DNA of 64,000 bases from Clostridia bacterium. Its GTDB lineage: Bacteria > Bacillota > Clostridia > Oscillospirales > Acutalibacteraceae. The position numbers and the translations under genes were made by a program. The notes below the pieces were generated by a model, which searched no databases, was not told the origin of the DNA, and saw only the letters and a list, made by a program, of their open reading frames with translations. Shown piece by piece: positions 3,949-5,307 of the stretch (positions are counted from its first letter, which is position 1; each line of letters begins with the position of its first letter). Location: assembly GCA_017503135.1 (NCBI GenBank), contig JAFVTQ010000002.1:107502-171501 (forward strand), in the 5' to 3' direction.

Positions 3949-3999
3949 GAGTATTTTATAATGTAATGTGCTTCAAAAAAATGAATTAATGCAACAAAA

Positions 4000-4020
4000 A
4001 AAGGTGTCTTTGCAGACACC
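4000..4020 (-). terminator. Minus-strand intrinsic terminator without an assigned gene
   Basis: Hairpin with arms 4002-4008 (GGTGTCT) and 4013-4019; on the minus strand it is followed by seven T. It lies upstream of the pheST promoter and downstream (minus sense) of the minigene region. It may end an antisense transcript across 4.0-4.7 kb or simply insulate the promoter. No minus-strand gene is evident there. Confidence 0.6.
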
Positions 4021-4145
4021 CAACATATTAATAATATCAAATCGAAAGCCAAAAGTCAATAGTTTTTGAAAAGTTTTATGAGCATAATATACAAATTCTG
4101 CGAAATAAACAACTAAAAACTATTAACTTTGTACAAAATTACATA

Positions 4146-4174
4146 TTGCAATCTGTGTTTTTTCGTGTTATATT
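4146..4174 (+). promoter_or_regulatory. Promoter of the minigene RNA
   Basis: TTGCAA at 4146-4151, a 17-base spacer, TATATT at 4169-4174 (continuing TATTATAG). Start site expected near 4181, about 23 bases before the first minigene. Confidence 0.6.
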
Positions 4175-4203
4175 ATAGACACAGAAAGGAAAAGGTGATT
4201 CCA

Positions 4204-4215
4204 ATGTACAGTTAA
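4204..4215 (+). other. Minigene 1 (ATG TAC AGT TAA, Met-Tyr-Ser)
   Basis: Three sense codons directly behind AAAAGGTGATTCC, with a six-base gap from AGGTG to ATG. Translation is not demonstrated; the case rests on repetition of the same arrangement in units 2 and 3. Confidence 0.4.
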
Positions 4216-4269
4216 AACCTAATCCAAAGTAAACCCAAATGCTTAATATAAAAAGATAAGGTGGTTCCG

Positions 4270-4281
4270 ATGTTCAACTAA
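4270..4281 (+). other. Minigene 2 (ATG TTC AAC TAA, Met-Phe-Asn)
   Basis: Second copy, behind AAGGTGGTTCC. The second codon is again aromatic, and length and stop codon are preserved although bases differ from copy 1. Confidence 0.4.
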
Positions 4282-4336
4282 ATCTTCGTTCAAATTAAAG
4301 CAAATAGGTTTAATAAGAAAAGATAAGGTGGTTCCA

Positions 4337-4348
4337 ATGTACAGGTAA
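4337..4348 (+). other. Minigene 3 (ATG TAC AGG TAA, Met-Tyr-Arg)
   Basis: Third copy, behind AAGGTGGTTCC. Same architecture as copies 1 and 2. Confidence 0.4.
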
Positions 4349-4593
4349 GAAACCCTGAAATCTCTGATAATAAATCTTAGTTTAAAAGATAATAAAGTGT
4401 AGCAAACAGCACAGACGAAAAGCAACACTAGTTCTAAAAAGAATCAAGTGAATTTAATATAGATAAATGTTTGCAAACTAAGTTTTATAATTAAGAGATT
4501 ACTTTCAAAGCCTTCGTAAATAATTCTAAAACATTAAAGAATCTCGCTTTTCGAGAATAATTTGAAATCAATGTTAAAGAGAATCAAGTTCAA

Positions 4594-4635
4594 ATGAAGG
4601 CAAAAAAATTTAAGAAAGAGAGGAAGCTCAAATGA
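4594..4635 (+). CDS. Short basic peptide ORF (13 aa)
   Basis: ATG to TGA encoding MKAKKFKKERKLK, nine of thirteen residues Lys or Arg. The ribosome-binding site is weak (AAAGAGAA upstream). Its stop overlaps the next start (ATGA), which would couple translation of the two. Either a leader peptide or chance; no family recognised. Confidence 0.25.
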   Translation: MKAKKFKKERKLK

Positions 4636-4664
4636 TGTTAGATATCAAGAGTGAACAGAAGTAA
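4632..4664 (+). CDS. Leader-like peptide ORF (10 aa) ending inside a terminator stem
   Basis: ATG ATG start behind a good GAGAGGAAG site, encoding MMLDIKSEQK. The stop codon at 4662-4664 lies in the 5' arm of the terminator hairpin, so a ribosome finishing this ORF would cover that arm. This is the layout of a translation-coupled attenuator, although no structural gene follows directly. Confidence 0.35.
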   Translation: MMLDIKSEQK

Positions 4665-4713
4665 TCCCCCGGTCCGTGAAAGGCGTGTAAAGAAACGTCG
4701 ACCTTGGGGGTTA
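4658..4713 (+). terminator. Long-stem terminator of the minigene RNA
   Basis: The 5' arm (4658-4675, AGAAGTAATCCCCCGGTC) pairs almost fully with the 3' arm (about 4700-4718), around a loop of about 23 bases, followed by a run of seven T. The stem is long and stable for an intrinsic terminator. Confidence 0.8.
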
Positions 4714-4733
4714 CTTCTTTTTTTATGCCTTTT

Positions 4734-4758
4734 TCGTCCCTTGGGGCGATTTTTTTGT
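4734..4758 (+). terminator. Second plus-strand terminator
   Basis: Compact GC hairpin (TCGTCCC with GGGGCGA) at about 4734-4750 followed by seven T. It backs up the preceding terminator and separates the minigene unit from the tRNA promoter. Confidence 0.65.
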
Positions 4759-4835: not shown

Positions 4836-4855
4836 TATCAAGCATTTTAATATAT

Positions 4856-4877
4856 GCGGATGTGACGGAACTGGCAG
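4856..4877 (+). pseudogene. Truncated duplicate of the tRNA-Leu 5' end
   Basis: 22 bases identical to the first 22 bases of the intact tRNA-Leu at 5045-5066, including the acceptor 5' strand and part of the D arm, preceded by a similar TAATAT stretch. It breaks off in the D loop, where the structured insert begins. Confidence 0.85.
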
Positions 4878-5044: not shown

Positions 5045-5132
5045 GCGGATGTGACGGAACTGGCAGACGTGCAGGCCTCAGACACCTGTGGATATTACTT
5101 CCTTGTGGGTTCAAGTCCCATCGTCCGCACCA
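5045..5132 (+). tRNA. tRNA-Leu (anticodon CAG)
   Basis: Class II tRNA: acceptor GCGGATG paired with CGTCCGC, an anticodon loop CTCAGAC with anticodon CAG, a long variable arm (GGA/TCC stem), a T arm GTGGG-TTCAAGT-CCCAT and an encoded CCA. It reads CUG leucine codons. The top anticodon-stem pair is a C-A mismatch, a minor oddity. Flanked on both sides by partial copies of itself. Confidence 0.92.
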
Positions 5133-5180: not shown

Positions 5181-5296
5181 AGTTGGGACTTGAACCCTTG
5201 GGTTTTTCCGTTAAGAAAACGATATGGTATATCGTTTTTAGGCAAAAGCACAATGCGAATCCCCCCATTCGCATTGTGGGCTATAATTCAAGTCCC
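5181..5296. mobile_element. Multi-hairpin element with tRNA T-arm inverted repeats
   Basis: Outer inverted repeat GGGACTTGAA (5185-5194) / TTCAAGTCCC (5287-5296) enclosing two perfect hairpins: ten-base arms 5216-5225 / 5229-5238 and twelve-base arms 5249-5260 / 5267-5278. The left outer arm (5185-5197) is the exact reverse complement of the tRNA T-arm at 5107-5119; the right arm is a direct copy of it. The three-way-junction form and absence of an ORF suggest a small MITE-like or structural-RNA element associated with the tRNA 3' end. Confidence 0.5.
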
Positions 5297-5307
5297 ATCG
5301 TCCGCAC
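5287..5307 (+). pseudogene. Duplicate of the tRNA-Leu 3' end
   Basis: 21 bases identical to tRNA positions 5110-5130 (T loop through the acceptor and first C of CCA). With the intact gene it forms direct repeats around the 5133-5286 element, as left by elements that target tRNA 3' ends. Confidence 0.85.

Follow-up and report, generated by a model that had tools for sequence, protein, structure and literature searches.

The three minigenes of the window (the whole stretch of 64,000 nucleotides analysed here) are the opening of a predicted free-standing RNA of about 0.5 kb, which ends in a second mini-ORF whose stop codon lies inside a terminator. Sequence comparison makes us nearly certain that the RNA family exists and that selection acts on each of the two frames wherever it is present. 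The reading that we tentatively prefer, at somewhat less than an even chance, is that of an RNA with its 3' end gated by translation and its 5' end guarded by a ribosome or a hairpin. In our searches no known kind was found to correspond to an RNA of this design, which stands alone, carries a selected mini-ORF within its terminator and in most cases opens with a minigene. The family is widespread on the chromosomes of many uncultured gut and rumen Clostridia and absent from Rfam 15, and it illustrates how clear selection can act on frames as short as three and nine codons, a size that gene finders pass over.

As an earlier note on this DNA had reported, three tandem three-codon minigenes stand on the forward strand, each preceded by AAGGTGRTTCC, and the repeat copies that carry them are in register (4177-4215, 4243-4281 and 4310-4348; spacing 66 and 67). 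Minigene 1 (4184-4215) comprises an extended Shine-Dalgarno sequence at 4184-4202 and ATG-TAC-AGT-TAA at 4204-4215, minigene 2 (4258-4281) has AAGGTGGTTCC at 4258-4268 and ATG-TTC-AAC-TAA at 4270-4281, and minigene 3 (4325-4348) has AAGGTGGTTCC at 4325-4335 and ATG-TAC-AGG-TAA at 4337-4348. The promoter and terminator that the note had assigned to this unit were also found, in the form of a promoter-like site at 4146-4174 (TTGCAA and TATATT separated by 17 bases, with TG ahead of the second hexamer; predicted start near 4181) and of two terminators, all on the forward strand. The predicted RNA start, AGAAAGGGTGATACC, resembles the complement of the 16S rRNA 3' end with small insertions, in agreement with the proposed kinship of the Shine-Dalgarno core to an extended complement of that end; the 16S 3' end itself (GGCTGGATCACCTCCTTTCT) was found twice in a single, complete genome out of 59. 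Further along the same strand, folding predicts a middle domain (4508-4601) in which the long-range helix GCCTTC/GAAGGC (by eye, GTCTTC/GAAGAC in relatives) encloses the hairpin TCTCG-CTTTT-CGAGA at 4542-4556. A second Shine-Dalgarno sequence (GAAAGAGAGGA, 4614-4624) then precedes the 3' mini-ORF MMLDIKSEQK (4632-4664; alternative start at 4635), whose codons read ATG-ATG-TTA-GAT-ATC-AAG-AGT-GAA-CAG-AAG-TAA. Its stop (TAA, 4662-4664) falls within the 5' arm of terminator 1 (4658-4724), which in a fold of the whole unit consists of a stem at 4658-4717, holding the stop codon, and a run of seven T at 4718-4724; terminator 2 (4734-4756; 4734-4749 in the tighter delimitation) stands outside the reach of the nine-codon ORF. 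The earlier note had overlooked this ORF inside the terminator, the meaning of the second terminator and a divergent promoter upstream.

The window's own genome (a 75% complete assembly) has a single instance of the 601-base unit, and a blastn search of 59 genomes, this one among them, identified clear homologues in seven more (L002-L008). Inspected by eye, L002 carries three minigene units, L007 two (the second ending in TGA) and L003-L006 one each; L008 carries none, with promoter and 3' end retained. The 3' end was modelled by covariance (R1), and the model matched in 7 of the 39 genomes of the genus and, at the level of the order, in 44 of 295 genomes spread over 28 of 148 genera, the window's own being counted in each; 15 of these 44 held at least two matches and 29 a single one. 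With a second model (R2), matches were obtained in 22 of 391 genomes of the class (own included) and in 1 of 299 across the phylum, namely the window's own, the searches of order, class and phylum having been run under stricter filters at which weak matches are lost. An exact pattern of the 3' ORF recovered at least 116 stretches from named genome contigs; among the 80 matches listed, the sources were metagenome-assembled Oscillospiraceae, Ruminococcaceae, Faecousia and other Clostridia, and many of the sample names were of gut or rumen. The same pattern recovered no stretch from viral contigs, and a distant blastn search of plasmids and phages with the window's unit gave no match. Rfam 15, applied with gathering and E-value thresholds to the window and 20 related loci, placed no family over the unit at curated score, and its hits in the related loci were a single T-box and four tRNAs. 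Searched as a phrase, the nine-codon peptide led to no paper, and no description of the RNA came up in the literature searched, although a survey such as PMC8040213 may list it without a name. All family counts are of sequences, many of them related, and not of independent events. The idea that the repeats arose by chance in A-rich intergenic DNA can practically be set aside, for although the region is A+T-rich and three copies alone would be weak evidence, conservation across families refutes it. Some contigs were seen to bear two or three cassettes within about 5 kb (L062, L076, L084, L095, L108, L135, L136, L150 and L057, the last with the same sequence as L090), with a spacing of only 0.4-0.6 kb in some cases.

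Counted from its last in-frame start, the 3' mini-ORF has exactly nine residues (MLDIKSEQK type) in 104 of 121 copies, and it ends in TAA (57), TGA (52) or TAG (11), one frame being cut by a contig end; real shifts, with the stop two to six codons later, occur in L056, L057 and L095. A further 43 copies all have a stop, after nine residues in 41 and after eight in two. Because all copies were found through the 3' domain, many of them via a pattern that fixes the first codons of the ORF, its presence is partly by construction, which does not apply to the stop and the later codons. Among 39 distinct frames found by the model or by a 5' pattern (a set that required a stop and gives no evidence on it), Leu takes codon 2 in 37, spelled TTA, CTA, CTG or TTG, and Asp at codon 3 and Lys at codon 5 are each kept in 38. 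The stem of terminator 1, stop codon included, covaries to a level reached by none of 500 shuffles (21 of 21 pairs change on both sides and 98.1% of cells pair), in an alignment of 110 sequences fitted to a model that contains this stem and favours it. Comparison across the family thus shows a nine-codon frame under selection, preceded by a strong Shine-Dalgarno sequence and with its stop codon paired in the base of the predicted terminator 1. The presence of a stop codon there suggests that the fate of the RNA depends on passing ribosomes, and the peptide's conservation hints at a further function for it or for its codons. By folding, the unpaired share is 0.46 at the 5' ribosome site, 0.63 at the 3' site and 0.45 in the middle, the sites being about as open as the middle.

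Ribosome footprints and the make-up of intrinsic terminators imply that a ribosome at this stop codon must cover the final bases to pair ahead of the U run, so that translation and termination would be mutually exclusive at terminator 1. We propose that both mini-ORFs are translated and that a ribosome at the end of the nine-codon ORF would occupy the base of terminator 1 and prevent its folding. When translation keeps pace, transcription would continue to terminator 2; when initiation or early elongation fails, terminator 1 would act, and the 3' end and the amount of the RNA would reflect how well translation is proceeding. At the very 5' end, the minigene would keep a ribosome cycling as a shield against 5'-end decay (a function in which a 5' hairpin could replace it), and it may also make the RNA responsive to difficulties in forming the first peptide bonds. 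The output would be an action in trans, or the RNA level itself. Translation is inferred here, as are both ends of the RNA, any target that it may have and the tiny divergent RNA described below. A wider notion is that of an RNA class that gauges translation: through the nine-codon ORF in the terminator and, usually, the 5' minigene, its 3' end, length and lifetime would depend on whether ribosomes can initiate and form the first bonds, and the signal would be passed on in trans by this RNA or by the tiny divergent one from the same intergenic promoter region. We hold this notion to be possible and on the whole doubtful. A chromosomal RNA with selected frames of three codons at its start and nine codons in its terminator would be a new way for ribosomes to decide an RNA's fate, and the family makes direct predictions for Term-seq and ribosome profiling.

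A second terminator was detected within about 78 nt of the first in 59 of 140 copies, versus 6 of 280 windows farther downstream, 5 of 700 shuffles and 1 of 59 ordinary gene terminators of the same loci. Ordinary genes of these loci seldom have such pairs of terminators, whose presence here is in keeping with a first one that is at times overcome. Counted against gating are the 81 copies of the 140 in which the second terminator went undetected and the absence of the minigene from at least 19 of 147; moreover, a pure gating model does not need conservation of MLDIKSEQK at the level of the peptide.

The 5' minigene was analysed at sites defined without regard to frame (a -10 element, a GG-rich Shine-Dalgarno sequence, CC and ATG, upstream of a 3' domain). 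The base set was 147 copies of the 3' domain, and since its strict stem filter excludes the window's own copy, that copy is absent from the frame counts at the 111 sites and from the counts of extra units. An upstream site was present in 102 of the 147 copies, which yielded 111 distinct RBS-ATG sites, and at 102 of these sites an in-frame stop follows within four codons (13 frames of two codons, 84 of three and 5 of four). In the control frames of the same 111 sites, stops within four codons number 46 in +1, of which 39 are the immediate TGA of ATGA, and 7 in +2. Four of the nine exceptions are, by eye, not RNA starts (which may also hold for a few of the 102 short-frame sites, e.g. L102), and the remaining five frames run for 7-13 codons. 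Comparison hence shows that the minigene, where present, is selected as a frame, and a disruption of ATG or TAA without bias is not what the relatives display. The earlier claim of selection stands to this extent, but the minigene is not universal, as 45 of the 147 copies gave no site.

A single unit is the norm; extra internal units, some with the Arg codon AGA or CGG, were counted in 10 of 103 RNAs, versus 21 of 2060 shuffles. An exact pattern for ribosome-binding site and three-codon frame (AAGGGTGATACCRATGNNNNNNTAA) matched 12 times in 8 of 295 genomes, its reversed control never; ten of the matches adjoin an R1 match, and the other two (L193 and L196) also precede a 3' domain, the one of L196 with a changed peptide, MTEPKHSGK. 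The locus of L193 (around 1500-1900) looks like a decayed copy, in which the minigene is intact, the start and stop of the 3' ORF are lost and an arm of the terminator is gone.

At codon 2 (n = 102) we counted Tyr 49, Asn 13, Lys 11, Phe 8 and Arg 7, with others including Ile and Glu, and the 49 Tyr codons are all TAC, never TAT. The aromatic second codon on which the earlier note had remarked is thus that of the majority (57 of 102) and not a rule. It had led to the reading of the RNA as a sensor or titrator of Tyr/Phe tRNA tied to a phenylalanine T-box operon, and in the window the minigene cluster does lie beside a T-box (Rfam); yet a T-box accompanies only 1 of the 20 related loci, codon 2 otherwise encodes Asn, Lys, Arg, Ile, Glu and others, and the stronger bias is that of AGG at codon 3. 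Neither the sensing or titration nor the T-box link is supported by these data, and we consider this reading very improbable. AGG fills codon 3 in 44 of 89 minigenes. Its share among the codons of 328 neighbouring ORFs is 0.48%, and a common use of AGG was rejected as the source of the excess. The minigenes stop at TAA in 91 cases, TAG in 6 and TGA in 5 (n = 102); the 328 neighbouring ORFs do so at TAA in 194, TGA in 106 and TAG in 28. A pairing of the minigene's UACAG with a CUGUA ahead of the 3' Shine-Dalgarno sequence was also looked for, and CTGTA was found at 9 of 28 sites with TACAG versus 10 of 79 others, a weak association that relatedness alone could give.

The lambda bar minigene consists of a start codon, one or two further codons and UAA under a strong Shine-Dalgarno sequence. 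The minigene of the family is of the same type (2-4 codons, a strong Shine-Dalgarno sequence, UAA in 91 of 102 as against 194 of 328 in nearby ORFs), and the RNA might accordingly be a sink for translation in the manner of bar, in which rapid rounds on two to four codons drop peptidyl-tRNA and tie up scarce tRNA (Arg-AGG) or initiating ribosomes. The AGG excess would suit such a sink, as would the reported increase of minigene toxicity by short length, a strong Shine-Dalgarno sequence and UAA (PMC8708949). On the other side, two-codon members have no codon 3 and elsewhere it may be Lys, Asn or Thr; 29 of the 44 genomes have a single match and minigene-less copies exist; and the nine-codon ORF with its overlap of the terminator is left unexplained. 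Furthermore, bar is phage-borne, whereas this is a chromosomal family with a promoter, a second ORF and terminators, and with no viral-contig or phage match. We thus deem a sink improbable. In the axe-txe, LEE1 and LEE4 leaders, translation of a mini-ORF or its ribosome site influences the RNA (PMC8708949), but these minigenes act in cis on a downstream cistron, unlike a stand-alone RNA.

The 45 copies without a site were sorted by eye: 19 have an RNA start but no minigene, 15 have no clear start, five lack enough upstream DNA and four carry a minigene that escapes the pattern (L089, L142 with GTG, L206 and L209). In L064 there is a TTG and no short frame, and in L126 the ATG is replaced by AAG. 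With at least 19 of 147 copies devoid of a minigene, the 5' frame must be replaceable. The first 65 nt of these 19 copies have a mean folding energy of -15.6 (shuffled, -9.3), and those of 95 starts with a minigene -9.9 (shuffled, -7.1), a measurement made on the sequences in which the 5' hairpin had first been spotted; strong pairing of the first 14 nt (<0.4 unpaired) was seen in no more than 5 of these 19 copies, versus 12% of shuffles. In most of the 19 (among them L049, L083, L092, L101, L118, L123, L149, L173 and L178) the start, rich in purines, is predicted to fold into a 5'-proximal hairpin. The comparison suggests that hairpin and minigene may be alternative 5' modules.

The interchange of the two modules bears on a simpler explanation, according to which the ribosome is a cap only: the 5' Shine-Dalgarno sequence and minigene would protect from 5'-end decay a small RNA that acts by base pairing, with the variable middle as its working part and the nine-codon ORF guarding its 3' end, free of any gating. 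The RNA begins with a Shine-Dalgarno sequence (its start being predicted from the promoter), like the STAB-SD of Bacillus mRNAs at the transcript 5' end, and often has a hairpin in place of the minigene; in Bacillus, a 5'-proximal hairpin, a ribosome site or a bound protein stabilises RNAs, the hairpin acting like STAB-SD (PMC3997798), and ribosome sites of mini-ORFs protect E. coli mRNAs (PMC8708949). The length of the middle, 49-461 nt in 75 RNAs (cut at 520; L044 and L046 are longer), is as variable as this account would have it. However, the Bacillus stabilisers (PMC3997798) need no start codon, and in this family the minigene, where present, retains its start, its shortness and its stop (102 of 111 sites, albeit with at least 19 of 147 copies minigene-less). 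A mere cap also leaves unexplained the stop codon in the terminator stem and the second terminator. It is a serious possibility that we nonetheless judge unlikely.

Returning to the layout of the RNA, the smallest members (L132, L138 and one of those of L150) consist, in about 160 nt, of the minigene, one hairpin, the nine-codon ORF and the terminator. Hairpins with a GCUUA-type loop (the kind at 4542-4556 in the window) occur in 38 of 142 copies versus 19 of 1420 shuffles, and 35 of the 38 are situated 66-94 nt ahead of the 3' Shine-Dalgarno sequence. A downstream ORF of at least 80 residues was present in 108 of 119 copies, on the same strand in 47 and on the opposite one in 61 (a count in which tandem copies share genes), and from this lack of strand bias we conclude that the RNA is not a leader. 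The 174 flanking proteins fell into 144 clusters, the largest with four members, and no recurring partner gene was found among them. In a crude test on 147 copies, no alternative antiterminator pairing emerged (longest match to the 3' arm of the terminator 5.7, versus 5.4 shuffled), so that any coupling to translation would be by direct ribosome blocking only. Upstream complements of the 3' Shine-Dalgarno sequence (4.4 versus 3.8 shuffled, mostly matches of 4-6 nt) were unconvincing.

These observations weigh on the resemblance to the vmlR leader of B. subtilis, which has a three-codon frame with its own Shine-Dalgarno sequence (MIN; MDN, MDK and MRK in other Bacilli) and an intrinsic terminator, responds to drugs such as lincomycin (PMC9226507), and is the closest analogue of the three-codon frame. 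An antibiotic-responsive leader of this sort, with a three-codon uORF controlling a terminator ahead of a resistance gene, would be in keeping with family minigenes such as MYN, MYK, MRK, MRN and MNK, and with L003 (of the same genus), which has a MatE gene upstream of the RNA and, downstream, a same-strand ABC transporter gene. But in 61 of 108 cases the first ORF to follow runs on the opposite strand, and it belongs to no recurring family, being for instance a glycosyl hydrolase in L002, with a tRNA-Leu gene following in the window, and the pairing test gave no antiterminator; we hold this origin to be quite improbable. Both vmlR and the uORF attenuator rli53/lmo0919 of Listeria (PMC11550727) precede a single resistance gene as its leader and contain a structure that switches, whereas the present RNA stands alone, has a second mini-ORF inside its terminator, and shows a same-strand downstream gene in 47 of 108 copies with no recurring resistance family.

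Other likenesses are partial as well. Minigenes have been described in phage, in laboratory constructs and within leaders. In attenuation of the pyrBI type a frame ends in the terminator, which a close ribosome blocks; the frame of this RNA ends likewise, with the difference that it regulates no downstream gene. SR1, SgrS and RNAIII are dual-function small RNAs with longer ORFs. Like them, the present RNA is predicted to stand free and to carry a small ORF, whose coding conservation is seen by sequence comparison, but the ORFs of SR1, SgrS and RNAIII are not tied to a terminator as the nine-codon ORF is. The RNA lacks a defining feature of each known kind tested: it has no regulated gene as leaders do, is not phage-borne like bar, keeps start and stop codons that STAB-SD does not need, and matches no Rfam family. 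Its parts work like known parts, and the whole is unmatched in these searches.

Upstream of the RNA, on the reverse strand, a divergent promoter (TTGACT 4059-4054, TATTAT 4036-4031) is followed immediately by a terminator (hairpin 4021-4002 and a T run; whole element 3995-4059), from which an RNA of about 25-30 nt is predicted, starting near TGTTGGG. In a strict scan, such a promoter (like TTGACA-17/18-TATAAT) with a terminator hairpin recurs, at a similar upstream distance, at 50 of 105 related sites versus 1 of 2100 shuffles, some of the 50 coming from one RNA or from near-identical loci. Between the divergent promoters and ahead of that of the RNA, column conservation over 96 sites picks out two boxes 24 bp apart (4094-4148; TCTGCGTTTTGCACAA-like and ATTTTGTACAAAATT), box 1 at 4094-4112 (AATTCTGCGAAATAAACAA) and the palindromic box 2 at 4126-4148 (ACTTTGTACAAAATTACATATTG). 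The exact pattern of box 2 has six matches in the 59 genomes, solely at this cassette. A role for box 2 as a general operator was rejected on that account, and the two boxes are possibly the site of a dedicated regulator. Downstream of the RNA, the tRNA-Leu (CAG) gene occupies 5045-5132; by eye, fragments of it are repeated nearby, namely its 5' end with the preceding bases (ATATGCGGATGTGACGGAACTGGCAG) at 4852-4877 and, at about 5286-5306, its 3' end (TTCAAGTCCCATCGTCCGCAC).
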